A DNA stretch of 64,000 nucleotides. It comes from Hexactinellida sp. DTS-2022. Taxonomy: Eukaryota; Porifera; Hexactinellida. The stretch covers positions 1 to 64,000 of the forward strand of contig JAPNXP010000006.1 in assembly GCA_028753945.1 (NCBI GenBank), written 5' to 3'. Shown piece after piece: positions 13,279 through 64,000 of this stretch. Below the pieces are notes generated by a model that did not search any database, was not told the origin of the DNA, and saw nothing but the letters and a program-made list of their open reading frames with translations. Within the stretch, counting starts at the first letter, position 1; each line of letters starts with the position of its first letter. The position numbers were made by a program, and so were the translations under genes.

Positions 13279-13281
13279 GTC

Positions 13282-37300: not shown

Positions 37301-40300
37301 CGTCTTATCTATGCCTACCTAACCTAGTCACGAGTGCATATCACCCTATACCAGCCCGGAAAGCCTACTAACCTCTGTGTGTGTCCGAAGTCGTATATGG
37401 AGGTCCCAGGGTAGTCCCAGACCTGACCCGGGTTGGGCTTGTGTTTCCTGTGTACCACCCCCAGCACCATGCCGCTCCTTATATGGTAGTGCGCCAGGGT
37501 GTTTATGCGTCTCCACTCCTCATCTCCCTCGTTAGTCATGTCGCTGTCTCGCAGCTGGAGTCTCCCGCCCCCGGCAGATCGCAGCTCCACCTCCACGTCC
37601 TATAATAGGAACTGAAACTAAAGCCCTAGTTAGTTCCATAAGCGTACAGTAGAACCTGCATACCGTATGTCCCGAATAAGCGCAGGGTAAATAATAATGG
37701 CATTGCTATGATTCAAAGTAATACGGTCGTTCCAAAGCTTACAGTAGAACCTGTATATTCCGGAATTAAGCAGAACCGACACTTTCCTTATCCCAACGGG
37801 TGTCTGATTATACAGGTTATACTGTACCTACAAATCTAACTACACATGTGTTCACCTAACAGCAAGTCGCAATTAGCTATAAATTTGCTTGCTAATTAAG
37901 CTGCTAATGGAATTAACATTAAATGTTCGCTTAGGGACTGATAGTAACTTGCTATATATCACTGCTAAGGCATACACCACGTATGAATATGGAACTATAG
38001 GTGTTAGTTCCACTCTCACCTCCAGCTTGGGTCTCCTGGAGCACCCCACGCCCCTGTACAGGGTGTCCATAAGCTTTATCTTCGTCTGCGTGATGGTGTC
38101 GCAGTCCAGGAGTTTGCAGGGAAGTCGCGACCCGTCCTCCGCCTCGGCCTCAACCTCTAGTTTCTAAACACACACATTCCTACGCGTTACTATGGTAACA
38201 TGGCGTGCTTATGCCCCCCCATGGTCACATTTGTATTTTGGGTCAAACACGAAATGTACAATTGACTCCGCTTAATAGAGTCCCCTCGGGACCAGGTTAC
38301 TTAGACCCGGTTAAGCGGAGAAATCTATTAACCGATGGCTCTATTAAGCGGAGTCGACTGTTTTGGTGTTTTTCTAAACACAATGCAATTAGGTGATCAA
38401 AAATCTTATTTGAGCCACCAATTTTGCGTTTGGTGGCTTAGTTAATCCACCATAAATTATGGACTATGTGATTTTGTGTATACGTATTATATTTTTCGTT
38501 GCATTATTTGGTGCATCAGAAATTTGTTAAACCGCCGTTGTTTATTTCCTTACATTGAATGCGACTTCCTGTCTCATGAGCTTCTCCTCGGATAGGGAGT
38601 GCGCGGCGCTCCCATTGAGCACGTCCACGGGCCCCGCCTCCAGGTGTCCCTTCAGGCCCAGGAAGAGTCGGTACATGGCCACGCTAGGGGGCCCCTGCAG
38701 GTGAGGGAACAGGTTGAAGGCCAGCCAGTCAGCCAGCAGCTTCTCCGCAACAGACTCAGTCCTATAAATAGCCATAAACCTTGTTAACATCAAACGAATT
38801 ACTTAGAATCTCGTTAGTATGAACACCAGGGGACCGTCATATTGAAATCGCCTTATCCGGAATTCGTATTAACCAGTATTATTTGCATTGAAAGGCTTTG
38901 AAGGGGACTGAAATAATGTTCGCCTTATCCGTAATTCGTAATAACCAATATCAATTGTATTGAAAGGCTTTGAAGGGGACTGAAATAGTGTTCATATTAA
39001 CCGGAATTCGTATTAACCAATATCATTTGTATTGGAAGGCTTTGAAGGGGACTGAAATAATGTTCGCCTTATCCGGAATTCGTATTAACCAATATCATTG
39101 TATTGAAGGCTTTGAAGGGGACTGAAATAGTGTTCATATTAACCGGATTTTGTATTAACCATGTTGCTACTAACGAGGTTCTACAGTATTCATCTATCAT
39201 AATAATTATGACCAAGACAATATCCTTACGAATACAGTAGAACCTCGTTAGTAGGAACACGGTTAATACGAAATTCCGGATAAGACGAACAAACAGTGCC
39301 ACAAAATCAGGTCCCTACAATGTCTATTCAATGGGTATTACTCCAGTTAATACGAACTCCGGGTAAACCGAACAAATTTTTACCGTCCACTGTATTCTAA
39401 CTACGCTATCCCGTTATACCTCCTCAACAGCAGTTTTGATGTGTTCCTGGTTATGTTCCTGTTGATGAGCTCCTCCATAAGCTCGAATAGCACCTCCGTG
39501 AGATACGGCATATCTCCGTGCAGAGCCACCGTGAGGAGACTGGCCACGTTGCACCGGTCCCGGACCGAGAAGTTACGGTTCTCCTCCATGGAGCGGATAA
39601 GGGCGATTAGGAATGTTCGGTCGTGCAGCAGCCTCTCGAACTTGTGTAGTCCAGTCTCGAATAGCGCAGTGTCCATGTTACGCGGCTTCTACATTGGAAT
39701 GTGTTATACAGTCTGTTCTCTCTAATAGTCCACTTATTTACTTGTCCAAATCAACTATTTATATATCTGTAATAGTCCAGATTCTCTAATAGTCCACATT
39801 GGGCCAATTGTCCACTGCTGGACTATTAGAGAGAACAGTGTTATAGCCTAATAACCGAACATACACGTAGTAGGGTATATAACTGTCCCCTATACACTGA
39901 CCGGCCAAAGGTATTTGAACAATCTACTAATGCTATTATGCTGCTAGAAGCTTGGATATATTAATTCCTAATATTGATTTGCCCCTTGGGTATATAACCA
40001 GTGTTTCATACAGGATTGTATGCAAGGGCAATCTGGGAAATGGAAATTCTTAAGGGGAGCATAAATTAAAACTTCGTTGTGTAAGTGATTTTTCTAGGGG
40101 GCAAGTACACACCCCTTGTATGAACCCTGATAACTGTCCCCTAGGGTACATATCTGTCCCCTGTCCCCTAGGGGTACATAACTACTACGTACCTCCACTG
40201 GGTGCAAGATGGGGTGATCCTGTAGCCCCGGGAAGAGAATGCGCATTGCGAACGTTTTGAAGTTGTGAATCGGAATAGTGCCCAGCACCAAGCTGCCCTC

Positions 40301-41253
40301 ATCCAGTCCAATCTGAGTGTTAAGTTCCGTGAATCCTATAAATAGAATAGCAGTAATTAGCCGCATACATATTGACACCTTCATTAGGAGTTTAATCGGC
40401 GAAATATTATGCGCGGCTAGTAAGTTCTCTCCAAAATTACGCACCAATATCATTCTTATTGACCCGGCGCTTATTCGGGGAAATTACTGTAACTATAATA
40501 TACTGTTATAACATCCCTAACTCCTGGATTAAACCTTGATTGTACCCTATTATATCCAGAAAAGAATAGGATTCTGGGGTTAGAAATTAGAATGCTATAT
40601 CTAGTTACTGTTGTCCCCTATTATACCCCTGTTATACCCTATTGTCCAATATTCGGGGAAATACGGTATGTTGGAAACAGGGGAGAGGAGAACCTCAATT
40701 GTCCGACAAACTTGTTCCCCAAGCTCACCCTTGCGACACTTGTCAGCCAGATCGTTCTCAATATCCTCCATCTCTGCCAACAGGTGCTCAGCCTCCTCCC
40801 GCTTAATCCTTGTGCTCCGTCTGCTTCTGCCCAGAAAACAGCAGCACACACACAGGAACAAACACAGCAGACACATACACACCAGTAGCACCACCCCGGC
40901 CCCTATTAGCGGAGCTAGGTTCATCTCTAGAAATGATAGTATGACCGGTTTCTGTGTAATAGTCAGTGTGCTCCTGAGCTCATATCTATTGTTGTTAAGC
41001 CCGATCTCGATCTAGTAGAACTGTCAACAGCATTCCTATGCACACTTCATATCACTAACCTGTATCTCTAGTTCATTGTTTGTTGTTGTTGTTGTTGTTG
41101 TGTTGAGGGAACACCTAATGCCCGTCTCTGTGATTTGGATACTCGAGCAAATGTATGGGTTGACTGTTTGATTGTTGAATGTTTGTTTTATGCTAATTAC
41201 CTCTGATGGCACTCTATCGATGTTTGGAATCTAAACAGAACAAGCTGTAAGCC

Positions 41254-41287
<34 letters not shown>

Positions 41288-43212
41288 ATGTTACCTCAAA
41301 CATGATCTCTGTATCTCCCACTGTTATCGCCTGTTGTATCGTCTCTGCTCCTCCCACAAACATTGGGTTCGGATACAGTTTGAATGCAAACACTTGGAAG
41401 AATAACTGTGTCACATTAGGAACCGCGTCCATTATAAGATCGAAGCGCACGTCTGTCCCTTCAATGGAACTTGTGACGTTATAGAATCCGGCACCCGGAC
41501 ACTCCAGTCTTATAGCCGTACTGTCAGCAGGAGGCGTACATAGCTATAGAGAGAGGGAAATCTAAAATTGCAGCTGTGCCGACAGCATATCCTGGGCCAC
41601 TATGCTATACTAGTGAGTGAGAATCAATTTATTAGAGGCACAGTAGAAAATTATAGCTGTGCTGTCAGTTGGAGGTACGCATAGGTATAGACAGAATAAC
41701 AGCTGTTAAGGCATTATACAGGACTACAGTATAGGTACTCTGTGAAAAATCTAAAATTATAGCCGTGCTGTCAGCAGGAGTGGTATATAGCTAGAGAATA
41801 ACAGCTGTTCAAAGCATGAAATTATACAGGACTACAGTACATGCACACTATGGTATCGAAAACAATAAAAAATCTAAAATTACAGCTGTGCCGACAGCAT
41901 ATCCAGGGCCACTATACTATAGAATAGTTGGCACAGTAAAAACGTGATAAGGAATTATCCAGGAGCACGAGACGCTCCTTTTGGAGCATGATTTTTGGAA
42001 AATTTAATTAGGAGCGCGAAAATTCGGAATCTTCTCCTATACCGTAACATTAATCTGTGATTTAGGCGTATGGAAATTGCATAATACACTAATTAGAAGC
42101 ATATTTACAACGTCTGTATAACACACATCCCTAAGTACAACTCACGGATCTGCTTATCTCCGTCTCTCCCTGCATGAACACTAGCCACTGTGTTAGCGTA
42201 GCCCCTAGATTCCTCCCTCCCAGCTGGTAGTCTATCGCCCCTGCTTCCACAGTGCCTCTCAGCTGCTGCTCTGTCCCCACGCCCCCCAGGTATACATTGG
42301 TGACCTGTGGGTCTGCTAGCACCATGAGACTCTCGGGCAGGTAGGAGGTGTCAACTGAGTCTATGCGTATGCTCATCAGGGGAGAGCTGGGCGAGGGGGA
42401 GGCGCCCATTATGCACACTATCGTGTCTTCTAAGGGCAGATATAGGCAGTTATATACAGCTTGTATGTACAGTGGCATGCTATGTTAAGGCCTGTACATT
42501 AATATACAGGGAACTGTTATATAATCAACCGAACTTGAGTTTTTCCCCCAGAGCACTATAAATGCATTAATTATTATCTCTTATAACGAATATCTGGATA
42601 TAAAGGGATCCAAAGCACTTCGTTATAACGAGAGTTCACTGTAAGTAGCATGGATACGCCATAGTGAGGCCTGAATAGAGTACAGTATATGCGGTTGTAA
42701 GAACATTAAACTGGAAAACGGTTGCCATATACCCCTATATAATTATGTCGGTTATAAGAACACTATATGCAGTTCCCTATAATGTTATTATACCCTGCAT
42801 CTACTGTATAACTGTCTATACCTATAACTGTTACTAACCTGTTGCATTGTATGGCGTATGCGTAATCTCGCACTGCACCTCCCCCGCCGTGACCTCCCTG
42901 CTGCTGCCCACCAGGAGCTTGTCCCCGGAGAGGGTCACACGGGACCCGCCCGTCTGAGGTGTGAAGATAGGGGATATGCGCGTTATAACCGGCTGCGCAG
43001 TCTCGAAACTAGTGTTGCTGAGCGCACTGAGCCCCGCCACCGTCAGGTTAAGCGGGTCAGACCGCTCCTCTGTGGAGGCCTGCAACTGGCACCTCACGCT
43101 ATAGTGGTGAGACAGGTAAACAGTAGACAATAGACAATAGATAAACAAACACTAACTAACTAACTAACTTACAAACAAACAACCAAACTTACTAACTTAC
43201 TGACTAGCTAAC

Positions 43213-43244
<32 letters not shown>

Positions 43245-46200
43245 AACTTACAAACTTACTGACTAACAAACTTACAAACAAACTAACTAACAAACTTACT
43301 ATTTAAATATCTAACTAACAGACAAACAAACAAACTAACATACAAACTAACTAACTAACTAACTACCAAACAAACTTACAAACTTACTGACTAACAAACT
43401 TACAAACAAACTAACTAACAAACTTACTATTTAAATATCTAACTAACAGACAAACAAACAAACTAACATACAAACTAACAAACAAACAAACTTATTAACT
43501 AACTAACTAACTAACTAGCTAGCATACAAACTATCAGTATCTTACTATGTGTTGTTAGCTGTTGTAACAGAGCAGTATATGTCTCCTATCTTCACGCTCG
43601 TTACTCTGCCACTAACAAACATATTGTATCCCGTAACCTCTATCGCCACTGAGCCGCCAACCGCTGTTGAGTTAGGTAGGAACTATGATGCATATGGTTA
43701 ATCGCTATAAGGTGTTAGATATATGTCATATGGTTAATCGCTATTAGGTGTTAGCTATGTCATATGGTTAATCGCTATAAAGTGTGAACTATATGTCATA
43801 TGATTAATCGCTATAAAGTGTGAACTATAATTTATATGATTAATGGCTGGAAAGTGGCACAAATGTGTCGCAACTAACCGCGGATATCTGGGCCCGCGGA
43901 CACATTTCAGAACTTCTAACAATGTTGGTGCTTGCTGCACATGCGCTGCTGCACTCCCCACTCCTGTTGTCAGCACTGGCGCACCAATTGCACTCAGAGT
44001 TTGATACACAACCCATGCAGTCCAACTGGTTGCCGCAGATAAACACGTTAACTACATAGTGCATAGGGAATAATGTTATAAACACGTTAACTATACACAC
44101 ATACATAGGGAATAATGTTATAAACACGTTAACTACATAGTGCATAGGGAATAATGTTATAAACACGTTAACTACATAGTGCATAGGGAATAATGTTATA
44201 AACACGTTAACTACACACACACATAGGGGATAATGTTATAAACACGTTAACTACACACATACATAGGGGATAATGTTAGACAAGTTAACTATAGGGAATA
44301 ATATTTGTTAGTAGCACATAAACAGAGTTTCATATAGGGGGTGGTAGGGAGTGCCTGCTCCTTCAAGTGCCCCCCTAGAAGAACCACTTTCACAACGAAG
44401 TTTTCATTTATGGCCCCCTTAATAATTTACATATCCCAGATTGCCCCCCCCCCCCCCCCCCTTGCATGCAAACCCTGTATGAAACACTGATATAAACACG
44501 TTTAGGAATTAACAGCTGTTGCATTTAGAATCTCTTCACAATTGATAATATAAGTATTCTATTTCCATGAATGAACGAATAATTTAATCCAAAATTATTC
44601 GTTTCCACGAGACCCCTGCTATAAATACGTAACTCACATTCCAATGTCCCCTGATTGATGCTATGGTTGCTGGGTCCCCACACCAGTTGCACACTCCCTG
44701 TACCGTCGGTAGCAAATGTGTCCATCGACACCAGACAGTCGATCTCAGCTGTTGCCCCACTGGTGTTCCTCCAGACCCCAGGCACCCCTCCCCTCCCCTC
44801 TCCCGTTAGAGTGAGCGCACACCTGTACGTGTATACCTATAGACAGTACATTCCATGCTGCCAGTCCGGTTGCTAACTGACTATACTATAGGTACAGACT
44901 ACAGTAGACACCGGTTTTCTACAAATTCTTTGCATAGTTAGAATAAACCATTTGAAAGTAAAAGAAAATATAAATTTCTTACACATTTGGAATTAGAAAA
45001 ACCGATTAGTTAGAAAAAATACGGTTTCTACTGTATAACGGTACATTACAAGCTACCAGCTCCGTTGCTAGCATATAACTCACCAGTGTGGGTGCTGGGA
45101 GGTTGGCGCCCTGTAGAGTTATGTTGCCGACCTCTTGAGCTGCCACTTGTAGCGTGGAGGTGTTGAAAGTCGATAGAACAATGGGACACAATGTAGGGCT
45201 GTCAGTCGGCTAAAGACACACAAATAAATCGGTCTCCTACCAGTGTTTGCCAGAAAATACCACCCCGGAAAAACGGTTATTTCCACCCTGGAAAAGGCAG
45301 TAAATGTAGAAAAACCACTTATGACCGACTATATATGGCTATGGCAAAAAATATTGCAAGAAACTTGGCACCAGATTAAGTGCCAACCCTAAACCTAAAT
45401 GGAATCACACTGCAAGCACTTTGCACTTCAACCGATGCCTGACTGGCACCTAAACAAATCCCTGATTGGAGGCACTATATTTTGGTGAGTTATGATTGAA
45501 GTGCCTCCAAATGAACATGTTGTCGGCACAGCTGTAATTTTAGATTTTTGTCATCTCATCATTATATAGGCTTCACTTTCAATTTCAATTCCGAACCCTG
45601 TCCCCTGTCCCCTTACCTGCACCCATTCAAGTTTCCTTACAAAATAACGCGGCTCGATGAAACCCTGGTTAATACATAATCTGCACAGCTGTTATTTTAG
45701 ATTTTTGTTATGTCATCATCATTATAAAGGCTTCACTTCTATTCTGTCCCCTGTCCCCTTACCTGCACCCATTCCTCCATGAAACAGCTGATTCTCTCTG
45801 CAACACAGCTGCTGTCGTAGAGACACCAGCCACAGGCCGCGGTTGAGGCCACACAGCCGGAGCAGTTGCTATTGAATCCGCACTGCACCAGTGAGTATAG
45901 GAGGGTGTCTCCTAGCCTCGCGTTGTAAGCAGAGGTGCTCAGGTGAAGGCTGTACACTCTCGTGTCTATATACACACATAAACAACAACAACAACAACAA
46001 CAACATACAGTAGAACCTCGTTAATACCAACATCACAACAACATACAATAGAACATCGTTATTACTAACATCAGGGGATGCCAAAATGTGTTTGCCTTAT
46101 CCTAAATTCGTATTAACCGGCATTAGTATTGAAAAGGCTTTGTAGGGGACTAAAATACTTTTCGTATTAACCAGTGTGCGTATCAACCGTGTTCCTACTA

Positions 46201-49200
46201 ACGAGATTCTACTGTATAACAATAACAATAACAACAACAACAACAACAACAGACCTGACTCCGTGAATGAACTGACTCCAGTCGGGACAGCACACGTCAT
46301 ATTAGCGGTCCCATTAACAGGTCCCTTGATGCTGTTGGTGTTCCCGTTAACAGCTGTTACCGGCAGCGTATAGTTAGTGCCTCCTTCCGAGAAAACGCAT
46401 TCATATCCGCCCACAATGAGCTCAGGGAGATTCACAGCCCTCAGCGTAACCTAGATACGAGATAACGGCATTCCTATCTAGTTGCTATGCAACACGTAAT
46501 ACCATTGTTGTAATGTTATCTCATGGGTCTCGTATTTCTATATTCTGAACCGAATAGGAATTTAATTTCTGTTCAATAGTATAGAAATATGACCCATGAT
46601 ATCAATGGTATTATGTTTTACTTAGCAATTACAGTTAACTCTCGTTATAACGAAGTGCTTAGGTGTAAATTCCTTCGTTATATCCGGTTAATAATTAATG
46701 CATTTAGTGCTCTGGGGGAAAATCTCCATTTCGTTATATCCGACTTCGTTATAACGGGAGTTCACTGTATACTGTAACCTGTATACACAGTTAGTTAGTC
46801 TAGTGCTCTATGGGATAATCTCCATTAGGTTAAGAGCGGTTATGTCGTTATATCCGCTATGTTATAACGGGAGTATTACAGTGTGTGTATGGTACGTACG
46901 TTAGTATCTCGGTTGAGAGGGGAGGTGTCCGGGGTTACGCTAGTGACGGCTAGGCATGCGCCGCTGTCCGTCTGTATCCACCTGCCTACTAGCGCGTGTT
47001 GGGAGCAGAGAGAGCGGCGGCTGCACTCACTCTGCAGGCTGCACCAGCCGCACAGCGGGTCCGGGTCCGACACACAGTCGGAACAGCTGGAGTGTCTGGC
47101 GCAGTCGTCTAGGGGGATGCGATAGAGAAGTGAGCTCGTAATGGCGAACAGATTGGCGCCCGATTGGTCCCTCTCAACAGCTGTTATTGTGTCCGAGAGG
47201 ACCAGCGTCTCCAGGGGAGGCTGCACCAATACCACTCCATTCAGAAGATACTATAAATAGAACAGCGTTAGTAGTAGGAACACCAGGGGACCGTCTTAAT
47301 ATGTTCTTATTAACCGGAATCACTTGCATGTATTTGTAACTAACGGGTCTACTGACGTCACTATGATTGCGTATTATATCACTATGTTATGTGGGTATAG
47401 AGGCGTGTTGACTCACCTTAGATATGCTATTTCCCCGTACAAGGTATAGGTAGTAGTAGGAGTATCCACTGTCGTTTATCGCTGTTGTTGTAACGTGGGT
47501 CTGTTCCACAGAGACCACAACATAAGAAATGAGCTCTGTTCCACTTGTGACAGTACCTGCATCCAGGAACACTCTGTTTGTATCGCTTTCCCCCACTATT
47601 GTCCACAGATTACACTCTGTGTTGATATTTGGGTCTGAGTATAGCTACATAGAAATGTGATTAGTTTAAGTTCCATAAAGCTCCACTTATTACTTATTTT
47701 CATCAAACCTATTAATTCAAGATCAAGTTATTTTCATTAGAAACGAATAGAGCTGCAAATAGGTCATTTTAATTGGTAATGGCCTTTAGAAACGTTGGAA
47801 AAAGCCTTAGAAAAGGCGTTAGAAACGTGTCACTTCGCGAGACCATTTACACCATTTGTTACTTACCGAGCATGGTAATGTAGCAATGGATCCGAACAGC
47901 GCTTCATTAGGGATACTTCCTATTTCATTAACTACACAGCTCTCGTAGGTATCTCGCATCGCTTGGTTGATGGAGCTGAGCGAGTAAGCACACACTGATA
48001 CCATTGTTAAAAACTTGTACGTTACTACCAAATAGTTTGACTCTGAACTGTCGTTAAATACACTCAATCTCGCGTCTAGCACAATTGGGGTGCCAGCGGT
48101 TACACAGGGTGATAGGATAACCTGGTATAGGGAGTGGAACCTATTTAGTAATAGGTTGTCTGACTCGCAAATGCGAGTGACGCGTATATCCACACCATCA
48201 TCAGACACTATGTAGACATATCCCTCTGCTCGAAGCATAGAAATGTAATTTCTGTTGAAAGAAGTAGATTGAGCAATGGCCAGCAATAACGCATCCAATA
48301 CGAGGTTATTAGCCGCTAGTTGTGTCGCCCTAATCGGGTACATTGGGTTTTGATCAGTCTGTCCAATCGTGATACCATTGCCAGACGCCGTATATAGACT
48401 GGGCACGTTATTAGAGGTGTTAGCAAACACAAGCAGCACCCCTAGATCCACCGCCTCTCCCTGATCTCCTTCCAGGACAAGTCCATCTCCATACCCCAGC
48501 ACTTGTAGTGTGTTAATCTGTGGAGATCAGTATAAATATAGACAGTATCAAGGCTGGCGTAAGCGGTCAAGCCAATAGCCTGGCCACTTTATAACTGCTT
48601 CCGCCACCCTTGATTATACTCTGTTAATAGGAACAAGGATAGGGGGATATCGGATGGGGAGTACAAGGTTTAATTCCCCTAGCCCAGTGGTACCAAGCTG
48701 GGCAGTAGGGGTCCACAGAATGCATAGTATTTGCTATAGATGAACAAATGAAAAAGTTTGGAATTCGCTGCGGCCTAGCCTATACAAATGCGTGCTAGTG
48801 ACTCCGGTTAATACAAACATATTTCTAAGGTCCCCTGGTGTTCCTATTAACATAGTAGTTAGTTTCATATTATAGTTCCTATAACTCACGTCCATGTACT
48901 GACATCTCCCCTTCCTATTGGTGCAACTGCCTACATACCCCATATCATCGTCTACGGTAGAATACACATGTGAGAGATTGATAGTGTCGAACAGAGATTG
49001 TCGCACAGTCAAATCAACAGCCCCGACAGTAATGACTCCACCATACGTGTCTAGTACTACTATTTCATCCCTGTACACCCTTAGCCCGGTTAGTACCACG
49101 ATGTTGTCCCTATTAAGAGCCGAGTCTATATCGATTTGTGCGACCCTCGTTGTGCCTTGTGTGAGCGCCCCTGTCACACAGAGTATCAAGATTAAGTTCA

Positions 49201-49207
49201 GCAGCAT
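34373..49207 (-). CDS. Plexin 1, complete, 27 exons
   Basis: Minus-strand exons: 48890-49207, 47867-48517, 47417-47644, 46900-47250, 46255-46450, 45763-45965, 45084-45209, 44638-44836, 43879-44051, 43546-43682, 42839-43098, 42146-42429, 41295-41543, 41060-41230, 40729-41011, 40193-40335, 39420-39688, 38554-38761, 38020-38163, 37373-37599, 36873-37026, 35979-36145, 35448-35595, 35332-35396, 35084-35162, 34957-35031, 34373-34468. All phases match; 1,867 aa. Order: signal peptide, Sema (to about 440), PSI at about 447-515, 582-649 and 758-815, IPT-like folds to about 1,180, one transmembrane helix (about 1,214-1,240), then the split RasGAP with a Rho-binding domain insert. GAP arginines are present: VRDRCNVASLLTVALH (1367/1369) and PLRFWVNLLKNP (about 1718). 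Plexins are semaphorin receptors whose GAP acts on Rap. The C terminus ends SEEVCLDIAENLYSE-like without further motif. Confidence 0.95.
34490..34705. repeat. Minisatellite ATTATACCATGGATATATCAGC in plexin 1
   Basis: About six units of 29-50 bp alternating ttataccatggatatatcag and ttataccgtgggtataacaa, in the last intron just before the terminal exon. A truncated CGTTATAAGCGG-type MITE follows. Confidence 0.85.
35211..35299. mobile_element. MITE, CAGTAGAACCTCGTTAGTACGAAC family
   Basis: Left end cagtagaacctcgttagtac is well preserved; the right end is lost. Other copies lie at 38,803-39,187, 39,235-39,394, 46,006-46,217, 53,391-53,675 and 57,573-57,650, all within plexin introns. Ends and TA flanks suggest a pogo/Tigger type. 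Confidence 0.75.
36433..36872. repeat. 40-80-bp repeat duplicating a plexin 1 donor site
   Basis: The intron after the exon at 36,873-37,026 has about nine units containing GTACCTTGGTGGCGACTAGC (or close variants). That string is the reverse complement of the last codons of the exon (LVATK) plus its 5' splice site. The rest of the unit is ttatacatacagtgtatac. The exon tail and donor have therefore been tandemly copied into the intron. Confidence 0.92.
37076..37290. mobile_element. Repeat with GAGACTTCATAATAAGCGAAC
   Basis: Shares agacttcataataagcgaac, caaaccctatgtaagttgtt and gggaccatagggcttgtt with 50,962-51,097 and, more distantly, 54,120-54,250. Non-coding dispersed element in plexin introns. 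Confidence 0.65.
37648..37828. mobile_element. MITE with CAGTAGAACCTGCATACC ends
   Basis: Ends cagtagaacctgcataccgt and, inverted, gattatacaggttatactgt. The left-end sequence is repeated internally at 37,741 (acagtagaacctgtatattc), so two copies may be fused. Confidence 0.65.
38259..38361. mobile_element. MITE, GACTCCGCTTAATAGAG family
   Basis: Ends attgactccgcttaatagag and ctctattaagcggagtcgac with an internal deletion compared with the 154-bp copy at 30,696. Confidence 0.8.
38803..39187. mobile_element. CGTTAGTACGAAC-type MITE with internal expansion
   Basis: Inverted ends aatctcgttagtatgaacac and ctactaacgaggttctacag. Inside, a block of about 62-66 bp (ttgaaggggactgaaataat; gttcgccttatccggaattc) occurs four times, so the interior has become a short tandem array. 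Confidence 0.85.
39709..39840. mobile_element. MITE, CTGTTCTCTCTAATAGTCC family
   Basis: Ends cagtctgttctctctaatag and attagagagaacagtg. Second copy of the element in the UBA1 intron at 19,775. Confidence 0.85.
41075..41101 (-). repeat. GTT triplet tract coding threonines in plexin 1
   Basis: A GTT array lies inside the exon 41,060-41,230 and is read as six consecutive threonines (ACA) on the minus strand. A longer GTT tract (41,256-41,287) lies in the adjoining intron. AAC/GTT triplet arrays are the commonest microsatellite in this window. Confidence 0.8.
41557..42115. mobile_element. Cluster of CTAAAATTACAGCTGTGCCGAC ends and a dispersed element
   Basis: Three or four copies of the aatctaaaattacagctgtg end lie in a row (41,560; 41,650; 41,755; 41,875) separated by tatagctatagaacagctgtt-like and acaggactacagta sequence. 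The block 41,948-42,115 is a copy of the ATCCAGGAGCGC element. All lie in one plexin 1 intron. Confidence 0.65.
42507..42808. mobile_element. Two adjacent MITEs in a plexin 1 intron
   Basis: 42,507-42,642 is a CGTTATAACGAA-family copy. 42,700-42,808 is a left-truncated copy of the GGTTATAAGAAC family, ending tgcatctactgta. Confidence 0.75.
43141..43545. repeat. AACT/AAAC tetranucleotide tract
   Basis: About 400 bp of aactaactaac and acaaacaaac units fill a plexin 1 intron. A block of about 125 bp (43,255-43,345 and 43,380-43,470) is duplicated. Confidence 0.92.
43690..43860. repeat. TCATATGGTTAATCGCTATAA minisatellite
   Basis: Four to five units of about 45 bp with tcatatggttaatcgctata and aggtgttagctatatg in the plexin 1 intron between PSI3 and the next exon. 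Confidence 0.88.
44036..44280. repeat. 41-bp repeat duplicating a plexin 1 acceptor site
   Basis: About six units of the type ATAAACACGTTAACTACATA followed by gtgcatagggaataatgtt. The first unit overlaps the start of the PSI3 exon (ends at 44,051): its CTATGTAG acceptor and the first 13 exon bases are in every closely related unit. The array thus holds decoy 3' splice sites upstream of the real one. Confidence 0.92.
44902..45034. mobile_element. MITE, ACCGGTTTTCTA family
   Basis: Ends acagtagacaccggttttct and, inverted, aatacggtttctactgta, flanked by TA. Copy of the element at 28,863. Confidence 0.75.
45470..45715. mobile_element. GGAGGCACTATA palindrome with GTCGGCACAGCTG end
   Basis: A ggaggcactata...agtgcctcc pair is followed by gtcggcacagctgtaatttt at 45,521-45,550, as in the satellite-border element. 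A second right end lies at 45,680-45,705. In a plexin 1 intron. Confidence 0.65.
46006..46217. mobile_element. MITE, AGAACCTCGTTA family, flanked by AAC/AATAAC tracts
   Basis: Ends cagtagaacctcgttaatac and, inverted, tactaacgagattctactgt. Triplet tracts (45,975-46,002 and 46,218-46,252) border both sides, suggesting insertion into a microsatellite. Confidence 0.8.
46632..46885. mobile_element. CGTTATAACGAA MITE and a partial copy
   Basis: 46,632-46,768 is a 137-bp copy with good ends. 46,796-46,885 is a second, rearranged copy, and most of it lies in the segment shared with plexin 2. Confidence 0.8.
48600..48855. mobile_element. Dispersed repeat TCCCCTAGCC...GACTCCGGTTAATAC
   Basis: The words ctctgttaataggaacaagg, ggtttaattcccctagcc, cctatacaaat and gtgactccggttaatac recur in order at 56,147-56,262. 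Lies in plexin 1 intron 1. Ends are unclear. Confidence 0.55.
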
Positions 49208-49334
49208 TGAAATGAGGAGTATAAACTGTATGACTCTATTTAAGAGCGCCTAACGGGTATCAGTTGCATTGTAACCTGACTCCCATCCTATCTGCTTATA
49301 AGCAGGAGCCTTGATAAGCTCGTGTGTATAACCA
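49208..49334. promoter_or_regulatory. Bidirectional plexin promoter region
   Basis: Only 127 bp separate the start codons of the two divergent plexins, so both core promoters and 5' UTRs must fit here or begin within the genes. A perfect 14-bp palindrome, CTGCTTATAAGCAG (49,292-49,305), contains a TATA-like core readable on both strands, 30 bp before the plexin 2 ATG. A TTAAATAG on the minus strand (about 49,232-49,240) may serve plexin 1. Assignment of either as a TATA box is inference. Confidence 0.6.
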
Positions 49335-52300
49335 ATGCTCGTCTGTATTTCTATTTCTATCTGCCTATTCATAGGGCTCTGTGTGGCACAGGCCCCGGTG
49401 CGACTGGTCTCGATCTCAAACCCGAACCGATTCGATTTCTCCCTCCTGGCCCTTGGCGCTCCTGATGGGTCCGTTTTAATCGCCGGCACCGATTTTCTGA
49501 CGCGCGTCGCACCTGATTTCCAGCAGAGCTCTATTTCCAATGTTCAGAATCTACCGCAAACCCTCTCAATGGTGGCATTCGACCACTTCAACAACCGCTA
49601 TTTCGCATGTTCGCGCGAGCAAATGTGCCACTTCTATGCCACTTCTAACCTGTCCAACTCAGTGGCTAGTGTCACCGTACTGGGATCCACAGGGGGGATT
49701 CCTAAGGCGGCCGTGTTCGCTATGCAAGGGGGGGCTCCAGCTGTGTTCGTATACGGCAGCTTCCTCACCTCAAGCAAAACCTCCACAAGGTCTGTTCTAT
49801 TTATAGTAGCACTCTATTAAGCGGAGTCGAATGTGCAAGGCAAATATACATATGGGTATACAGTGGATGCCGGTTATAAGAACTTCGTCGGGAACTGCAT
49901 TTAATGTTCTTATAACCGGCATAAATTATATAGGGCACAGTCAGTGTTTTTTTTAAGGAAAATTAGAGGCCCAAAATGGACGTCTAATTTTTCTCAATGG
50001 GCCTCTAATTTTTAACGTGCGAAGTACTCAATATCATGAAATGTAGAGTGTGGGCCTCTAATTGTTGGTGTGAGGGCCTCTAATTGTTGGCAGGGCCCTC
50101 TAAGCAAATCCTTAAAAAAAACACTGGGCACAGTAGATATCGGATATAAGAACACCGGTTATAAGAACATTCTCCTGGAAAAACGGTTGCCATATACCCT
50201 ATATACTTTATGCCGGTTATAAGACCATTATATGCAGTTCCCGATGATGTTCTTATAACCTGCATTCGTATAACAATTCCGTTCTTCAATTTTAACCAAA
50301 TCTTGTTTGTTGGAACAAATGGGCCTTATTAACCCTGAATAATTTCTATATTATAACATTGTCTCCTATAGATATTCTCTGCAAGCATTCCAATTGACTG
50401 ACCTGGTAACCCAGACGGGTCTCTTTGTAGGAGAGCCTTTTGAGACCGGTATACTCAGGAAACTGATTAGCACATTCTCACACGCAGATCGGTTATACTT
50501 TGTAGTGCGACATTTCGAATCCAGTACCCACTCGACCCGACTATTCTCTGTCTGCAACAACACAGGTGTTACTAGCAATAAGTTTGATTCTGTGCTTGAG
50601 ATTGTGCTAACAGAATGCGACTCGAGCTTCCGGTATCTCGTGGAGGCCCGGGTTACGGTGCTACAGAATGGAATGTCACACCTCGTGTTGGTGTATCGGG
50701 CTAGCGAGGAGAGCGACGAGTCCCGGCTTTGTGCGGTCTCTCTCTCTGACTTAGTTATGTTCGTTGTTAACAACTATAATATTATCGGCACATCTGTTCC
50801 CCTGGAATGGCTTGACGGTTCTGAGAGCAGGGCATCCAGCTTCGCGACATCGGTATGTGACACTTATGACACTCAAACTAACTAACAAACAAACAACAAA
50901 CAATACAACTAGTACAGTCAGTTTCTTATATCAATATTCAACGGATTATTGTGTACATATTAGAGACTTCATAATAAGCGAACGCAACTTAATACAAACC
51001 CTATGTAAGTTGTTAATTGGGAACATAGGACTTGTTCATTATACAATGATTAATATTAACCAGACGAATATTATTCAGAATAAGCAGACCTGACTGTAAT
51101 ACTTAATTGTTGGGGCAAGTTCATATTTGTTCTATCTTATAGTTCCTGGCTAGTTTCTCTCCTTGTGACTTTGAAATAGGAACGTGAGTTGTTGTTGTTG
51201 TTGTTGTTGTTGCTATTGTTATTGTTGTTTATATATTATTCCTTTAGCATTGTATTCCCTCTCATGATCCCTGCCTCTGCCTCTGCAACTACTTTCCCCT
51301 CTACCCCCCTCCTCCCCACTGCTTACTCAGCTCAGCCTAACACATACGGTAGGGTGGTTAACCTGCTAGTGGCTACACAGGACACTCTGTACTACCTGTT
51401 CATAGTCACAGAGCAGGGATATCTGCTAAAGGTGAGTATAGGTAGGAAATGATGTCGGCACAGCTGTAATTTTAAATTTTTTAAAGGAAATATTGTCGGC
51501 ACAGCTGTAATTTTAGATTTTTTAAGGAAATACTGTCGGGGCAAGTGTAATTCTAGTTTTTTACGGAAATACTGCCGGCACAGCTGTAATTTTAGATTTT
51601 TTCAAGGAAATACTGTCGGCACAGCTGTAATTTTAGATTTTTTTAATTTTGAGTTAACTATAATATAACACCATTCTATCTAGTACTACATATCCGGGAG
51701 CTCGCTAACTTCTGCTGTATCTCTCCTGGAGGTCCGGCCTGTCTCCTCCTCCTTCCGAGACCGGGTGTCCGCCCTGGAGCCGAGTGGCAGCAGCCACCTC
51801 CTGGCCCTGACACCTCGGGAGCTGTTAAGGATCCCCCTAGACGACTGCGCCAGACACCTGACCTGTTCCGACTGTGTGTCGGACCCGGACCCGCTGTGCG
51901 GCTGGTGCAGCCTGCAGAGAGAGTGCAGCAGCCGCTCTCTCTGCTCCCAACACGCGCTAGTAGGCAGGTGGATACAGACGGACAGCGGCGCATGCCTAGC
52001 CGTCACTAGCGTAACCCCGGACACCTCCCCTCTCAACCTGGATACAAACGTATGTACCATACACACACTGTATACTCCCGTTATAACATAGCGGATATAA
52101 CGATATAACCGCTCGTAACCTAATGGAGATTATCCCCCAGAGCACTACAGTATTCTCCGCTTAATAGATTTCTCCGCTTAATGGGTTCAAAGTAACCTGG
52201 TCCCTAGGTGACTCTATTAAACAGAGTCGACTGTATATGCATTAATTATAACGAATATCGGATATAACGAAGGAATTTACAGGTCCCAAGCACTTCGTTA

Positions 52301-54307
52301 TAACGAGAGTTGACTGTAATTACTATACAACACATAATACCATTGTTATACCATGGGTCATATTTATATACCACTGTTATATCATGGGTCATATTTATAT
52401 ACCATTGTTATATCATGGGTCATATTTCTATACTATTGTTATACCATGGGTCATATTTCTATACCATTGTTATACCATGGGTCATATTTCTATACCATTG
52501 TTATACCATGGGTCATATTTCTATACCATTGTTATACCATGGGTCATATTTCTATACCATTGTTATACCATGGGTCATATTTTTATACCATTGTTATACC
52601 ATGGGTCATATTTCTATACCATTGTTGTTGTTTAGATAACAGTATCAGCTATCAACCTCCCTCAGCTGGCTGCTAACAACACATTCCTGTGCGTATTCCC
52701 GTCGCTAGGGAGCACTCAGGTATCAGCTGTGACAGGAGGACAGAATCTGACTGGTCCCGCCCCCGGGCCTGTGAACCTCACCTGTCCCACCCCTGTCGAT
52801 ATACCCAGCATAAACCAATCAGGTAGGTTAGGTTGTGTTGTGTTATGTTGTTGTGTTATGTTGTTGTGTTGTGTTGTTGTTATTGTTGTTATTATTATTA
52901 TTATTATTATTATTGTTGTTATTATTGTTGTTATTATTGTTGTTATTATTATTATTATTGTTATTGTTTACCTCTCTCTCTAGCCACTACGATTTCCCTC
53001 TATCTCAGCAGTAGCGAGTTCCCCAGCACTATCCTTCACGCTACGTTCCCCTACACCCTATTCTACTGTTCCTATCACACCTCATGTCAGTCCTGTGTGT
53101 CCCTCTCGGACCTGTCCCCCTGCGGTTGGTGCGTATACTCGGGGGGGTGTACCCACTCTCCTGTCCTCTGTCCCTCCTTTAACACCTCTCTTAACACCTC
53201 CCAGTGGGTACAGACAGACGACTGTCCCTCCCTTAGCCCCCTCCCCCTCGGCAGCCTCTTCGCTACGGAGAATAGCAACCTCCTCCAGCTGATGGGGGCA
53301 AATCTGCCCCCTCCCATAGTGAGTCCCTAGATAGCTACCAGGGGGTAACTAACCGTAACTTATGTGGGAACTACAATTCAAACGTTACATACAGTACACC
53401 TGCATAATCCGACCCTCTATAAACAGGAATTCGTTAATACGAACACCAACGGATGGTTTAAATTTGTTCGCTTTATCCGGAGTTCGTATTAACCGGAGTA
53501 ATACCCATTGAATAGCCATTATAGGGACCTGATTTTGTGGAACTGTTTCTTCGTCTTATCCGGAGTTCGTATTAACCGGAGTAATACCCATTGAATAGCC
53601 ATTGTAGGGACCTGATTTTTATTCGTCTTATCCGTAATTCGTATTACCCGTATTCCTACTAGCGAGGTTCTACCAATATCTTATGAGACCCCATATCTCT
53701 ATTTATACTATACCCCCCCTCAGGCTAGCTTCCAGTACGAGTGCCAGCTTCAGTACGGTACCAGCTGGTACAACTCATCAGCTGACTATCTCTCTCCCTC
53801 CTCCCTCTCCTGTCTCCTGCCCTCTGACGTCATATCCCTTGGTGTACCCTCCCTCCCGGCCTCGCTCCTCCTGTCGCTCTCCTCGCGGCCCCTGGCCCTC
53901 TCCCAGCTGTCTCTCTACGCCTGCGGGAGACAGGGGAACAGCTGTTCCGAGTGTCTATCCACTCCCCTGTCCGCCCCGCTATGCGGCTGGTGTCTAGAGA
54001 CAGGTGGCGACACCTGCGACACCAACCGCTGTCAGGGCACCTTCCTGAATGCCACTTGTCCCACTCCGCAGATCTTATCCGTAAGTAAACAACAACAACA
54101 CCTTGTTATAGACACAGGTCTGCTTATAGGAACTAGCCATATCGTACCAGTAGACAACTTATATAGGGTTCGTATTAAGTTGAGTTCGCTTATTATGAAG
54201 TCTCTCTAATATTAACACACTTTTGGCCCTTGAATGTTCATAGTAAGAATCTGACTTGTACTAGTTGTATTTGTTTGTTAGTTTGTGTGTTTGTTTGTTT
54301 GTTTGTT

Positions 54308-54343
<36 letters not shown>

Positions 54344-57307
54344 ATTCGTTTGTTAGTTAGTTAGTTTGTTTGTTTGTTAGTTTGTTTGTTTGTTTGTTTG
54401 TTTATTTATTTATTTGTTTATTTATTTGTTTGTTAGTTAGTTAGTTAGCTTGTTAGTTAGTTTGTTTGTGTTGTATACTTGTTTATCTGTATATTTACAA
54501 GTGTGTCTATCTATGTGTGTGTAGGTGTCCCCCTCTGCCCTGCCGGTGCAGTACAGCGGTCTGCTGTCTATAACCGGAACCGAGCTCGGTACCGTTACGG
54601 ACACGGCTACCGTAACTCTGGAGATCGGCCAGCCCGAGCCAGCCGCGTTCCAATGCGTGCTCAGCGAAACCAACCAGCAGACCATAGGCAGAGAGTGAGA
54701 CTAATCACTAACTAACAACTAACTAACTGACTTACAAACTATCAAACAACAAACAAACAACTAACTAACTAACTAACTGACGAACTAACAAACAAACAAA
54801 CTAACTAACAAACAAACTAACTAGCTGACGAACGGACGAACTAACTAACTACATAACTAACAAACAGTAACTTACAAACTAACAATCAAACAAACAAACA
54901 ACAAACTAACTAACTAACTAACTGACGAACTAACAGACAAACAAACAAACAAACTCACTAACAAACGAATTAACAACATACAAACATACAAACAAACTAA
55001 CATACCATCTACCATATGCACTACTATATCCCATAGGATTAGCTGTACTATAGTTGGTCTTCTCTTCTCCCCATTCCGCATCCCTGGTTCCTCTAACAAC
55101 TTCACCCTCACCCTCCGCATAACCAGCCCCCTAGGGGTCACCCGCACTGCCTCCCACGCCCCCCTCTTGATATCCTCTCCCCTCATTCAGGCCCTGTCGC
55201 CTTCCTTCGGCCCCGCGGCGGGGGGGACACGGGTTAGGGTAACAGGGATCGGACTAGGCATAGGGGTATTCAGGTCTGCTGAGATTATAGGCACGGCTAA
55301 CTGTAGTATAGTGGCCCAGCCTAGCTACGTGGATGGTGATCTGGAATGTGTAACTGAGTCTGTTCCAGCAACTACTAGCGGTAAGGTTGTACAGGATTTC
55401 ATACAGCAAAATTATGCGTGCCTAGATTAAGTTAAAATACTAAAATACTCAATTTGTATTAAGTCTATGGGAGCATCTCTCGATTTTCGCTCGCCTAGAA
55501 AAGTTTCCTTTAAAAATTACGCGCCTGGATGAAACCCTGCTTGTTTACCTTTTCAAACAACAACAATTGAGTTATACAGTGGATACCGGTTATAAGAACA
55601 TCGTCGGGAACTGCATATAGTTTTCTTATAACAGTCATAAATTATATAGGGTATATGGCAACCGTTTTCCAATATAATGTTCTTATTATATCCGGTATGT
55701 TCTTATATCCGGTGTTCTTATATCCGGTATCTACTGTACTACTCTGAATATAATGTTGCCACTTTCCAGGCCAGTTTGGTGTCACTATAGACGGCACAAT
55801 CTACAAATCTACCTCGGGACTGTTCCAGTTCCGAGCTAATCCCCAGATATTATCCTTCTCTCCGAAGGCAGTTATTCCCTCCTCCAACTTCTCTCTCACT
55901 TTTAAGGGAATCTCTCTCGACGCCGCGAGTAGCCCGCGCATTCTATTCTATTCGGGCCGCCAGCCTGGATACCATGTGGGTAATAGGAATGCTATAAATA
56001 GGGGTTATTACTCAGCTAGTTTAGTTTAGGTAGTAGTCAACGAATATCCTTTTCAATCTAATATTTGTTTCGAAACGAACGAATATTTGAATATTCGGTA
56101 GATTCATTTGAGCCCTAGTTATAACAGAAGACTCTGTTAATGGGAACACGGATAAGGGGAATATCGGTTAAGGAGTACAAGGGTTAATTCCCCTAGCCTA
56201 TACAAATCATGCAAGTGACTCCGGTTAATACGAACATATTAAGACGGTCCCCTAATACATTACATTCCTATATAATACAGTGGAATATAGTTATTTGTTA
56301 TTTTTACAATAGTTTGATAATAGTTACAAAGTATTAGACACAAGTTAGTTATTACTCAGCTTATTACTAATCAAAGCATTTTCCTTGAGGCACTATCAAT
56401 TACCCAACCAGTAGCCACCAAAAGATAGTGCCTCCTAAGGGAAATGCGTCGGCACAGCTGCAATTTTAGATTTTTTATATGTTAATGTTACAATAGTTTA
56501 ATAATACAGCGGATGCCGGTTATAAGCACATCGTCGGGAACTGCACTTGATGTGCTTATAACCGGTATGTTCTTATAACCGGTGTGCTTTATATCCGACA
56601 TATACTGTGTAGTTACAAACTGTATTAGACACAAGTTGGTTATTACTCTTACATTCCTATAGCCCTGTATGGTGTTGCCAGCTGAAGAAGGTGTCAGATT
56701 AGTGGCAGAGCTATTGTGTCCCTTCCCCCAAGCTGCCACCTCTGCCACCCGTAGACAGATAGGTGGCACATCAGCTGTTAACTTCACACTAGTGTTTGAC
56801 GGGTACACGGTTCCCTCTGGGGCTGGGGGACTAGATGTAGAGATTGTGGCTAATCCCACTTTCGTGCAGACGGTTTTTCGACTGGAGGACGACATGCACT
56901 TCGTTGTGGACGCCATTAACACCTCCATAGACCTCGCAGTAAGTAAACAACAACAACAACAAACTTCATAGGGCTAATTCCGTTAGCCGAATACAACTAT
57001 GCAACATTTCGTTTATAAGGGTCGAATTAATATTTGTCGTATGTCAGTTTTCCAGTTCCCGTACAATAGCCATATGGACAAATATTAATATTTTAGGCCT
57101 GTCAGTCTAATTAATATTGGTTAACTCGTTTGCTTAATTTGGCCACACCATTACACTTTTAACCTTTAAAACAACAACAAATTAAGGCAGTGAGATTAGA
57201 ACAGGGCCACTATACTATACTATAGTCGGCACAACAACAACAACAACATACAATATTTTTGCACTCAGGACTCACAAATTAGACATCGACCTTACGACTC
57301 TGTCTAT

Positions 57308-57347
<40 letters not shown>

Positions 57348-60300
57348 CCTTACCCTGCCCAGTTTATAGACACCCCTAACTACCAGACCGCAGGGCTATC
57401 AGCTCTGTTCGCTGTGGAGCTGGAGTCAGCTGATTCTCCGCTTAACATAACTTCCGTTGTCACCTACCAACCGGGCAGTCTCAGTGTGGCTCTTGTAAAC
57501 CTACCCGTGGACAAGATACAGACACTCACATTCCAGATATTCGTAAGTGCATCCTACCTATACAGTATACGGTAGAGCCTCGTTAGTACAAACACGGTTA
57601 ATACAAATTTCTTTATAAGACGAACAAACAGTGCCATTCCTACAGGGTATTATACAGGAGTAGAATTGAAGAATAACAACCATATTGTCTAGCGCAGTCG
57701 ACTCCGCTTTAGATTTCTCCGCTTAATCGGGTCAAAATTCACAGGATTTATAGTACGGAATTACAGTTTGGCTACAAATATTTTCGGTTAATAGAATTCT
57801 CCGCTTAACCGGGTCAAATTAACCTGGTCCCGAGGTGACTCTATTAAGCGGAGTCGACTGTATTATAAATTCACTTTACACGAATCAAACTGTACACATT
57901 GTATCCACACGCATTCCAACCTCCCCCTCCCGTGTCTAGGTTACCCTCGGCAGCTACCGGACGCCCGCGGGCCGCGTGGAGGTTGTATCCGGTTTGGAGG
58001 CCGTTTCTGACAAGGGCTACATCGTTATAGGCGGTCTCCTCCCGTCTCTAGTCCTTATCCTGGTTCTAGTGTTGGTGCTGGTATGTCTGTTCTGCTGTCT
58101 CCGGAAGCGGGGTAGGCTGGCCAGCGAGGAGGTGGAGAAACTCCTGTTTGAGATGGACACCATAGAGAATAGAGTGGCACAGGCCTGTCGAACTGGTGAG
58201 TACCCTACTACTAACAGGGCTACTGTATATCAGTGTATTTACAGCCATTTTTTAGCCATGAGTCCATAGCAAATACGGTAAGTAAACCGTCATTGATAGA
58301 AAGTATCCCTGGTTAACTATGGTTATAGTAATAGAGGTAAGTAAACCGTCATACAACAGGATAATTAATTTGCATAATAATGATTGCTATAAGATGGAAA
58401 GAGGAATATAATATCCTATTAGAGACAGTGCCATTAGACTGCCTGTATATGCCTGGGATAAAATCTAAAATTATAGCTGTGCCGATCTCATTTTCTGACA
58501 TAAGCAGTTGGCACAGCTGTAATTTTAGATTTTCTAATTTCTACCAAGGGGGAAATCTAAAATTACTGCTGTGCCGACTGCTTATGTCGGAAAATGAGAT
58601 CGGCACAGCTATAATTTTAGATTTTCCTATATTTTCTAATGCGAGGGTATATGCCTGTCTTAAGGTATATAACAGCACCATATTCCTTAACTTCGTATAG
58701 CAGTACTACCTAGTTACCATTCTGTGCTCTTGTTATGCAGAGTTCGCTGAGCTCAATACTGAGTTGGGAGATGCAGCTGATCTCACACAGGGGGCAATGG
58801 GGGGGACCCCCTTCCTATCTTTCCACAGATTCGTTATGAACGTCATGTTCCCGGGACAGCCCGACCATCCAGTCATGCACCCAGTCAGGGTAAGTTAGTT
58901 CCATATTCACCTAGTTACAGTTCCATATTGTACTCTCGTTACAGTTCCATATTGTACTTAGTTAGTTAGATTTCCATACTGTACAGTCAAACTCCCGTTA
59001 TAACAAGTTGGATATAACGAAGTACCAGCTTATAACGAAGTCGTTCAATGGTCCGGAATTCCTTCTATATTATTACATTATTAAAACTTCGGTTACAACG
59101 AAATGGATATAACGAAATTCCGCTTATAACGAAGTTATTTATTATAGCCCATATAACCTCTAAACTATTGATTTTACTCCAGTTATAACGAACTCGGTTA
59201 TAACGAAATCCGTTTATAACGAAATCAACTTGTAATGAACTCTTTTAAGTCGAACTCCGCTTATAACGAAATGAAACTACTGTCCTAAGCAATTCGTTAC
59301 AACGGGAGTTGACTGTACTTCATTAGTTTCAGTTCCACATTGCACTTAGTTAGATTTCAATATTGCACCTCAGTTATAGCAAGGTCTGTTTAACACAGGC
59401 CACCTGCTTTGCTTTGGTTAGTACAGTTAGTACCGGTTTAACCTGCCCAGTTTAAATCTGCTGCTCTGCCCTGGTTAGTTACAGTTCCACATTGCACCTA
59501 ACTAGTTAGTTACAGTTCCACATTCCCAGATTCCGCCTGACATTGACGACAAGGAGTTCCTACGAGCCCTGGAGCTGTTCGAAGAGCTCTTGAGAGACAA
59601 GGACTACTTCCTATCCCTCGTAAACTGCATTGAGTCCAACCGCTCCTTCTCCCTCAGGGACAGGTAACCGGAACTATACATACAACTATACATACAACTA
59701 TATGTCCAACTATGCATACAACTATGCATACAACTATACATACAACTATACATACAACTACACATACAACTACTGTGGAATTGCTTTATTAGCAACTCGC
59801 ATTTATCATGAAATTTGGTTGCAAATAGGCGAAGTTGCTATTAGAGGAACAGAAATAACATTAAAAGCTCGCTTGGGAACTTGAAATAAGTTGCTAATAG
59901 AGCAAAGTTGCTAATAGGGGAGTTGCAAATAAAGCAACTCCACTGTATACATACACTATTGAACTATAGATTGAACTATATATCCAACTATACATGGCAC
60001 TATATATCCAACTATATATATGGCACTATGTAAATATCTAACTATATATGGCACTATACATACAACTATATATGGCACTATACATACAACTACGTGTATA
60101 TCCAACTATATACATTCAACTATACATGGCAAGATACATGGCACAATATATCCAACTATACATGGCACAATATATCCAACTATACATGGCACTATACATG
60201 GCACTATATACGGCAGTATTACAATAGGCTGTGTGTAGATCTAACATCGCTAGTCTCTTCGCGCTGTGCATGCATGAGGACATCCGGTACCTGACAGAGG

Positions 60301-61044
60301 TGTTGCGGACCCTTCTGGAGGACCTGGCGGAGAGGATGGTGGCACAGTCACGCGCCAAACTAATGTTCCGAAGGTACACCTGTTAGCCCCTAGGGTGCTA
60401 GATATTATACCCTCTTATGACAGAGGGAGGAAATGTAAAATTACAGCTGTGCCGACTGTTTATGTCATAAACTGAGAAAGGCACAGCAGTAATTTTAGAT
60501 TTTCTCCCAGGCTTATACAGACAGTCTAATGGCAAATTGCCAATGTCTCTAATATGATTTATATTTCTCTTTCCATCTTAGAGCAATAATTATTTTTGCT
60601 AACCAATAGCATAACTGTATACCCTTGATTTCCTGTCTATTTATACTGTTGTAACTGCAGGACTGAGTCCGTAGCGGAGAAGCTGCTATCGGATTGGTTG
60701 GCAATGCTTATGTACGGACACCTTATCGAGGGGGCGGGCCCGGCTATCCACCTGGCGTATCGCGCCACGAAGCGGCAGACCGAGAAGGGACCCGTGGACG
60801 TGTTTACAGGGGAGGCGAGACACTCTCTGGCCAAGGAGCGGATACTCACACAGCTGGCAGACATAGAGGACATGCGGGTACGCAATGACAATGATAACAA
60901 CACACAATAATAACAACAACACACAATAATAACACAATGATAACAACAACAACACAATGATAACACAATGATAACAACAACAACACAATGATAACAACAA
61001 CAAGACAATAATAATAACAACAACAAGACAATAATAATAGCTAT

Positions 61045-61075
<31 letters not shown>

Positions 61076-61247
61076 TTAAAACAACAACACAATAATAATA
61101 GCAATAACAACAACAAACAATACAGTGGAGTTCACGTATTAGCAATTCATCTAATAGTCTAATAGCAATAAAATTTCGTTAAAATGCGACTTGTTATTAC
61201 GCGATCTCCACTACAACAACAACACAACAACACAACAACACAACAAC

Positions 61248-61286
<39 letters not shown>

Positions 61287-61325
61287 CTACAACACAACAA
61301 CACAACAACACTACAACACAACAAC

Positions 61326-61382
<57 letters not shown>

Positions 61383-61386
61383 CTGT

Positions 61387-61417
<31 letters not shown>

Positions 61418-63538: not shown

Positions 63539-63712
63539 GTGCCGTTAACCAATTAGATTATAGGGTGTAACCGTGTGTATTAACAGCTATAATAACAGGT
63601 AGCATTAACCAATTAGATTATAGGGTGTAACCGTATGTATTAACAGCTATAATAACAGGTGCCATTAACCAATTAGATTATAGGGTGTAACGTATGTATT
63701 AACCAATTAGAT
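63539..63712 (+). repeat. 60-bp repeat duplicating a plexin 2 donor site
   Basis: Nearly three units of 60 bp, each running from a gtgccattaaccaattagat-like start to gctataataacag. AATAACAG followed by GT is also the end of the exon at 63,538, so each unit boundary recreates the exon tail plus donor. The last unit is shortened. Confidence 0.92.
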
Positions 63713-63717
63713 TATAA

Positions 63718-64000
63718 GGTTTCATCCAAGGACGCAAAATCGAGAGATGCTCCGAATAAACGAAATACAAATTGAGTATTTTTAGTGTGCTTATTCTAGT
63801 AAAAACTTTATTAGAGTCCTACTTAGTTTTCAAGCGCAAGACGCTCTTATGGGAGTATTACTTTGGAAATTATAATTTAGTTTAGGATTTAGGAACGACA
63901 AAATTTTAGAATTTTCTCCTATACCGTACGTAACATTAATTTGTGATTTAAGCGTATAGAAATTGTATCAGACCAGGATTAGGAGCGTATTTACAAATGC
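63718..64000. mobile_element. Two dispersed elements at the right edge
   Basis: 63,718-63,800 resembles the CTCTCGATTTTGCGTCC repeat in inverse orientation. 63,822-64,000 is a copy of the GGATTAGGAGCGTATTTACAA element and continues beyond the window. No plexin exon is visible here. Confidence 0.6.

Follow-up and report, generated by a model that had tools for sequence, protein, structure and literature searches.

A near-identical PSI module in two highly divergent, head-to-head plexin genes of a glass sponge: probable interlocus gene conversion

Contig C15 of a glass sponge genome begins with a stretch of 64,000 nucleotides, called the window below, in which two plexin genes, here named A and B, stand head to head. 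Outside one short block, their aligned coding DNA is 38% identical. Inside that block, which covers the codons of the PSI domain and runs through a splice site into the following intron, it is 96% identical. The explanation that we favour, with a probability of roughly 0.85, is interlocus (ectopic) gene conversion, in which A-type DNA entered B. Conversion had been suggested by a reading of the sequence alone, and the island supports it. Judged by its sequence, B would be a mosaic receptor gene, having its own Sema-region and IPT exons but an A-type PSI module. Gene conversion is, of course, a known process. The unusual point is how far apart the two genes are in the rest of their sequence.

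The gene models come from splice-site scoring and chaining, with comparison to a further plexin gene, D, as a guide; they have no RNA basis. Gene A lies on the minus strand (35496..49207), with a modelled start codon at 49,207; it was traced to 35.5 kb, and its 3' end may lie lower. Gene B lies on the plus strand (49335..64000), with a modelled start codon at 49,335, and extends beyond the end of the window. The start codons in these models are back to back, about 130 bases apart (49207-49335), an arrangement that would fit one common promoter region.

Pfam recognizes PSI, IPT/TIG, Plexin_RBD and Plexin_cytopl domains in A, the last two on joined exon pieces; the PSI domain scores 46.5 bits on the joined protein. 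In B, whose RBD was left out of the scan, it recognizes PSI and TIG. The cytoplasmic exons of B match Plexin_cytopl (PF08337) in the genome search at C15:60237, 60659, 63336 and 64094, and past the window end B matches the cytoplasmic part of A at 64094-64198. For the Sema domain, Pfam gives no match at E 0.001 in either gene; A still aligns with gene D through the Sema region. The best PDB matches of the PSI block are plexins.

Together with A and B, loci F (C15:273-302 kb) and G (C15:573-620 kb) bring the number of plexin loci within the first 0.62 Mb of C15 to four or more; the parts of G are scattered over about 37 kb and may represent more than one gene. Positions 1-13280 of the window, at the contig end, are a satellite of 212 bp in 62.7 copies with 99% matches, possibly subtelomeric. 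At 22517-23337, a 24-bp/120-bp tandem repeat lies inside long open frames on both strands; the stop-free frames over it, in a translation of 22301-23600, are 387 and 433 residues long, and they may encode a repetitive protein or be due to chance.

A blastn comparison of the window with itself aligns 46801-47118 of A with 52147-51831 of B, inverted, at 95.283% identity over 318 columns, with 14 mismatches, one gap and E 1e-142. This bears out the inverted match of about 320 bp that the sequence-only reading had described. The A copy (46801..47118, minus strand) comprises 219 coding and 99 intron bases; the B copy (51831..52147, plus strand) comprises 219 coding and 98 intron bases; 4,712 bases separate them. 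In A, the coding part is the last 219 bases (47118-46900) of the PSI exon, which splice-site chaining with D as a guide places at 46900..47250 on the minus strand, in phase 0. In B, the splice-site models place the PSI exon at 51684..52049 on the plus strand, likewise in phase 0. Its first part, 51684-51830, is B's own sequence and has no other match in the genome search. The block starts within the PSI exon, where Sema region and PSI domain meet (residues IPLDDC), and it is in frame.

Within the block, A and B are identical at 210 of 219 bases and at 68 of 73 residues. Nine mismatches in about 220 bases had been counted by eye, eight of them in changed codons, and this is exactly what the alignment gives: eight of the nine fall in five changed codons (SS to LT, four bases; S to R, one; R to S, one; R to L, two), and one is silent. 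Upstream of the block in the same exon, only 48 of 129 bases are identical, and in the exon after the PSI exon, 87 of 183. In the aligned ectodomain coding sequence outside the block, where exon 3 of B was started at 51261 to omit an uncertain leucine-repeat stretch, the counts are 1132 of 3000 bases (37.7%) and 259 of 1000 residues (26%). The earlier impression that the same exon just upstream, and the other domains, were clearly diverged was thus correct. When codon columns were permuted 10,000 times, no permutation reached the longest identical run (108, versus a permuted maximum of 24) or the best 219-base window (210 identical, versus 130). A uniform identity along both genes, the outcome that would have undone the conversion reading, is rejected by these numbers.

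Strong purifying selection, or convergence, might be imagined to have kept the PSI domain alike since an ancient duplication; all eight cysteine codons of the block are, after all, the same in A and B. Gene D, however, is a nearer relative of A than B is, and it shares only 120 of the 219 block bases. Further, the likeness of A and B extends through silent sites and, as had been claimed, across the splice site into the intron, where 93 of 98 bases match. Selection on the protein is rejected on account of these silent sites and this intron, and we give it next to no credence. The sequence-only reading had reached the same exclusion simply from the fact that the intron is shared. The exclusion holds, but that argument is insufficient, since a dispersed repeat makes up a large part of the intron sequence in common. 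The exclusion follows instead from the 93 matches in 98 bases, from the donor-site bases that do not belong to the repeat, and from a minisatellite unit that the searches located only in A-type introns.

These intronic elements deserve a closer description. In A, the intron that follows the PSI exon (46451..46899, minus strand) contains one partial and one full copy (46630-46769) of the repeat, which is MITE-like, and about one copy of a 31-bp unit (46574-46611). The inverted ends of the full copy match at 25 of 28 bases. This MITE-like repeat is common in the genome, with 1907 candidate places, 40 of them scored. Because it is common, the MITE-like part of the intron is by itself weak evidence for copying. 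The 31-bp unit is different. Outside B, the genome search found it only in introns of A and of two A-type copies, C and E, and since the DNA search passes over simple repeats and very common words, its restriction to A-type introns is strong rather than absolute.

The tract had been thought to end in B at 52146. It does not. A dispersed repeat at about 52148..52240, absent from A and C at this place, interrupts it; other copies of this repeat in the window lie at 30773, 38254, 57779 and 63173, at 82-87%. An A-type intron then resumes in B (52246..52376, plus strand), no closer to A than to C, and it leads into a minisatellite of 9.4 copies of the 31-bp unit (52337..52626). A single approximate match in the intron of A stands against these 9.4 copies in B, where the array presumably grew after the transfer. 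The shared tract thus extends past 52146, resuming near 52246 and reaching, by minisatellite units, to about 52626. Apart from the inserted repeat, the intron of B is A-type as well, and the transferred piece comprises the PSI codons together with nearly all of that intron, to about 52635. This end depends on the acceptor at 52636, which was picked for the likeness of its exon to that of A and whose score (7.1) is second to that of 52666 (7.4).

A search of the genome (112.4 Mb in 18 contigs) with the block found 38 places. In just three of them, A, B and C, does the match extend over the PSI codons; in C, a copy of A on contig C1, it lies at C1:13,529,990-13,530,309. In the remaining 35 places, the match is confined to the first 88 of 322 bases, with 79-87% identity, and one of these is the incomplete plexin copy E. 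These results bear on the idea that a mobile element carrying the PSI exon inserted in each gene, for which the MITE-like repeats in the intron part of the block might speak. However, each of the three PSI matches lies at the corresponding position in a plexin or a copy of one, and this search found no copy of the exon outside plexin loci. A mobile exon is rejected for this reason, and we consider it very improbable. Viral contigs were also scanned for relatives of the PSI block; two stretches fit a pattern, and neither is a relative.

The relatives of A also show which way the DNA moved. Six stretches of A between 40.8 and 48.4 kb match the C locus with 78-89% identity; exons 1 and 6-9 of A have no blastn match there. 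Gaps shift the reading frame of C in exons 2, 10 and 11; the gaps in exon 3 amount to a multiple of three, those in exon 4 cancel out, and neither set was counted as frame shifts. E is a second A-type copy, 370 kb from C and 96-98% identical to it over most of its length, in which exons 1, 3, 4 (the PSI exon) and 6-10 of A find no match. The regions C1:13,152,000-13,169,999 and C1:13,521,000-13,539,000 appear to be a recent duplication, with about 9.9 kb aligned in the rows listed, mostly at 96-98% and in one short row at 90%; besides the incomplete plexin copies of A type, it contains some 7 kb of other sequence.

Upstream of the block in the same exon, A and C are identical at 122 of 132 bases, whereas A and B are identical at 48 of 129. 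In the next exon, the corresponding counts are 181 of 195 and 87 of 183. Inside the block, all three are alike (A-C 200/219, B-C 200/219, A-B 210/219), and gene D (C1:16.48 Mb) matches each of them at 118-120 of 219 bases. C is A-like both inside and outside the block, while B is A-like only inside. This, in turn, means that A-type DNA entered B: the donor would be A-type and the recipient B, a direction that rests on the identity counts. As guides to the former PSI domain of B, loci F and G were of no help: the PSI domain of G is 41% identical to that of A, and F gave no PSI match in one search and, in the other, a weak match with two internal stops at C15:291648.

Trees add little to these counts, the pieces being short. 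For the flanks, the topology AC|BD has an HKY bootstrap of 100, and an AU test under GTR+G rejects no topology, with AC|BD best and the others at p 0.13. For the block, the AU test under GTR+G likewise rejects none of the three topologies (p 0.42-0.59); AC|BD is best by at most 0.4 log units, and the HKY bootstrap for AB|CD is 44. Four neighboring sites, at block offsets 27, 28, 29 and 31, group B with C, and A equals D at two of them. Such a pattern may reflect a mosaic, or a donor that was another allele of A or an A-type copy since lost.

Might the island be an artifact, with reads of A placed in B or haplotypes mixed? The window does lie at a contig end. Yet the two copies differ at 14 sites and by one gap, each has its own flanks, and the tract in B holds the 9.4-copy minisatellite and also a repeat that is missing from A and C. 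We therefore hold an assembly error to be most unlikely.

Under gene conversion, A-type plexin DNA, most likely that of A itself, would have taken the place of the PSI codons of B and of the intron behind them, presumably by replacing the homologous segment there; the piece measures about 800 bp today. The tract crosses weakly constrained sequence, both silent sites and intron. Against conversion stands the 38% identity of the partners outside the block, as high sequence identity favors gene conversion (PMC3966223). Thus, other routes to the same mosaic gene must be considered that need little or no homology: a template switch of the MMBIR/FoSTeS type, double-strand-break repair, or unequal exchange that made B a chimera. 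That the partners share so little sequence outside the block, that the copies are inverted and 4,712 bases apart, and that the transferred piece includes an intron all suit such a route. However, the piece lies in frame at exactly the corresponding position, and both the exon end and the phase are preserved, which is easy with homology and costly without it, and the younger of the two rounds discussed below fits a homology-driven conversion. A route of this kind is accordingly rated as unlikely, although well above the alternatives rejected above.

The age of the tract does not seem to be the same throughout. In the block, sites at which C stands apart outnumber those at which A or B stands apart by 23 to 13. 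In the further intron, beyond the inserted repeat, the ratio is 2:11 (Fisher p 0.0036 against the block), or 1:7 without the minisatellite unit (p 0.015); both counts use only the part of the alignment from TAACGAAGG onward. A first count over a longer alignment of the further intron gave 4:13 (p 0.008), but its initial columns were unreliable, and unique bases of C had been swapped for those of E where E differs. The Fisher tests take neighboring sites as independent, while the sites are few and some are clustered. Over 107 columns of the further intron, B differs from C at 7 and from A at 11.

These counts are suggestive, though not proof, of at least two rounds. The older would be a transfer at around the time when A and C separated; the younger, a homogenization of A and B limited to the 318-bp island. 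Through the older transfer, B would have acquired a PSI exon and intron of A type, and the 318-bp stretch would then have served as an inverted-repeat substrate for ordinary conversion between A and B. The ends of the island are where homology stops, at a diverged exon on one side and at the inserted repeat on the other. The first transfer could have started from a PSI exon that was formerly more similar, from the MITE-like repeat in both introns, or from a template switch between inverted neighbors. We entertain, tentatively and at less than even odds, a combination in which a homology-poor template switch between the inverted neighbors seeded the A-type PSI module in B, and repeated conversion since then keeps the island alike.

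The sequence-only reading had hinted that the changed residues around the PSI fold matter. This is unsupported. Between A and B, the block has pN 0.035 and pS 0.061 (pN/pS about 0.6), from pathway-averaged counts of 5.8 nonsynonymous and 3.2 synonymous changes; a single five-base cluster accounts for four of them. Intron (5 differences in 98) and codons (9 in 219) have diverged to a like degree, as is expected for a copied piece that has aged since. Positive selection after the event is rejected on these grounds. The synonymous divergence of A and B, 0.061, compares with a pS of 0.10-0.16 between A and C.

Inverted neighbors are well known to undergo gene conversion. In Caenorhabditis elegans, interlocus conversion is described between linked inverted paralogues, for example the hsp16 pairs and fog-2/ftr-1 (PMC3966223). 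There, as here, the genes are neighbors, head to head or otherwise, with a tract of high identity between diverged flanks, and in col-12/col-13 the tract includes an intron (PMC3966223). The cases differ in the divergence of the partners: synonymous divergence in fog-2/ftr-1 is 28% (PMC3966223), against the roughly 38% identity of A and B in aligned coding DNA. The same paper reports a survey of pairs of 35-99% identity and states that a firm minimum identity is not known, which leaves room there for distant pairs (PMC3966223). In CEACAM1 and its relatives, conversion likewise keeps one extracellular domain exon of membrane receptors alike, flanking intron is included in one pair, and inverted clusters are thought to favor the process (PMC2832619). 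But the CEACAM exon encodes a ligand-binding domain of closely related immune receptors, for which selection by pathogens is proposed (PMC2832619), while the piece in B is the PSI module of old plexin paralogues, with no selection seen. Non-bilaterian animals likewise have several plexins per genome, with six in the sponge Amphimedon queenslandica; the main text of that study has 0 occurrences of the term "gene conversion" (PMC6374515). A narrow search of openly licensed literature found no paper on plexins and gene conversion, and its matches for sponges and gene conversion were judged unrelated from title and the start of the abstract.

If a homology-poor template switch did seed the module and conversion has maintained it since, the case would show how concerted evolution can begin in a pair of genes much too dissimilar for conversion. 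Should there have been two rounds, it would be the first transfer that enabled the later conversions. The pair illustrates the passage of one domain between old paralogues: other copies give the direction, an intron went with the domain, and the order of the steps can be read from later scars. Such a transfer could mislead plexin trees that are based on Sema plus PSI sequence (as in PMC6374515).
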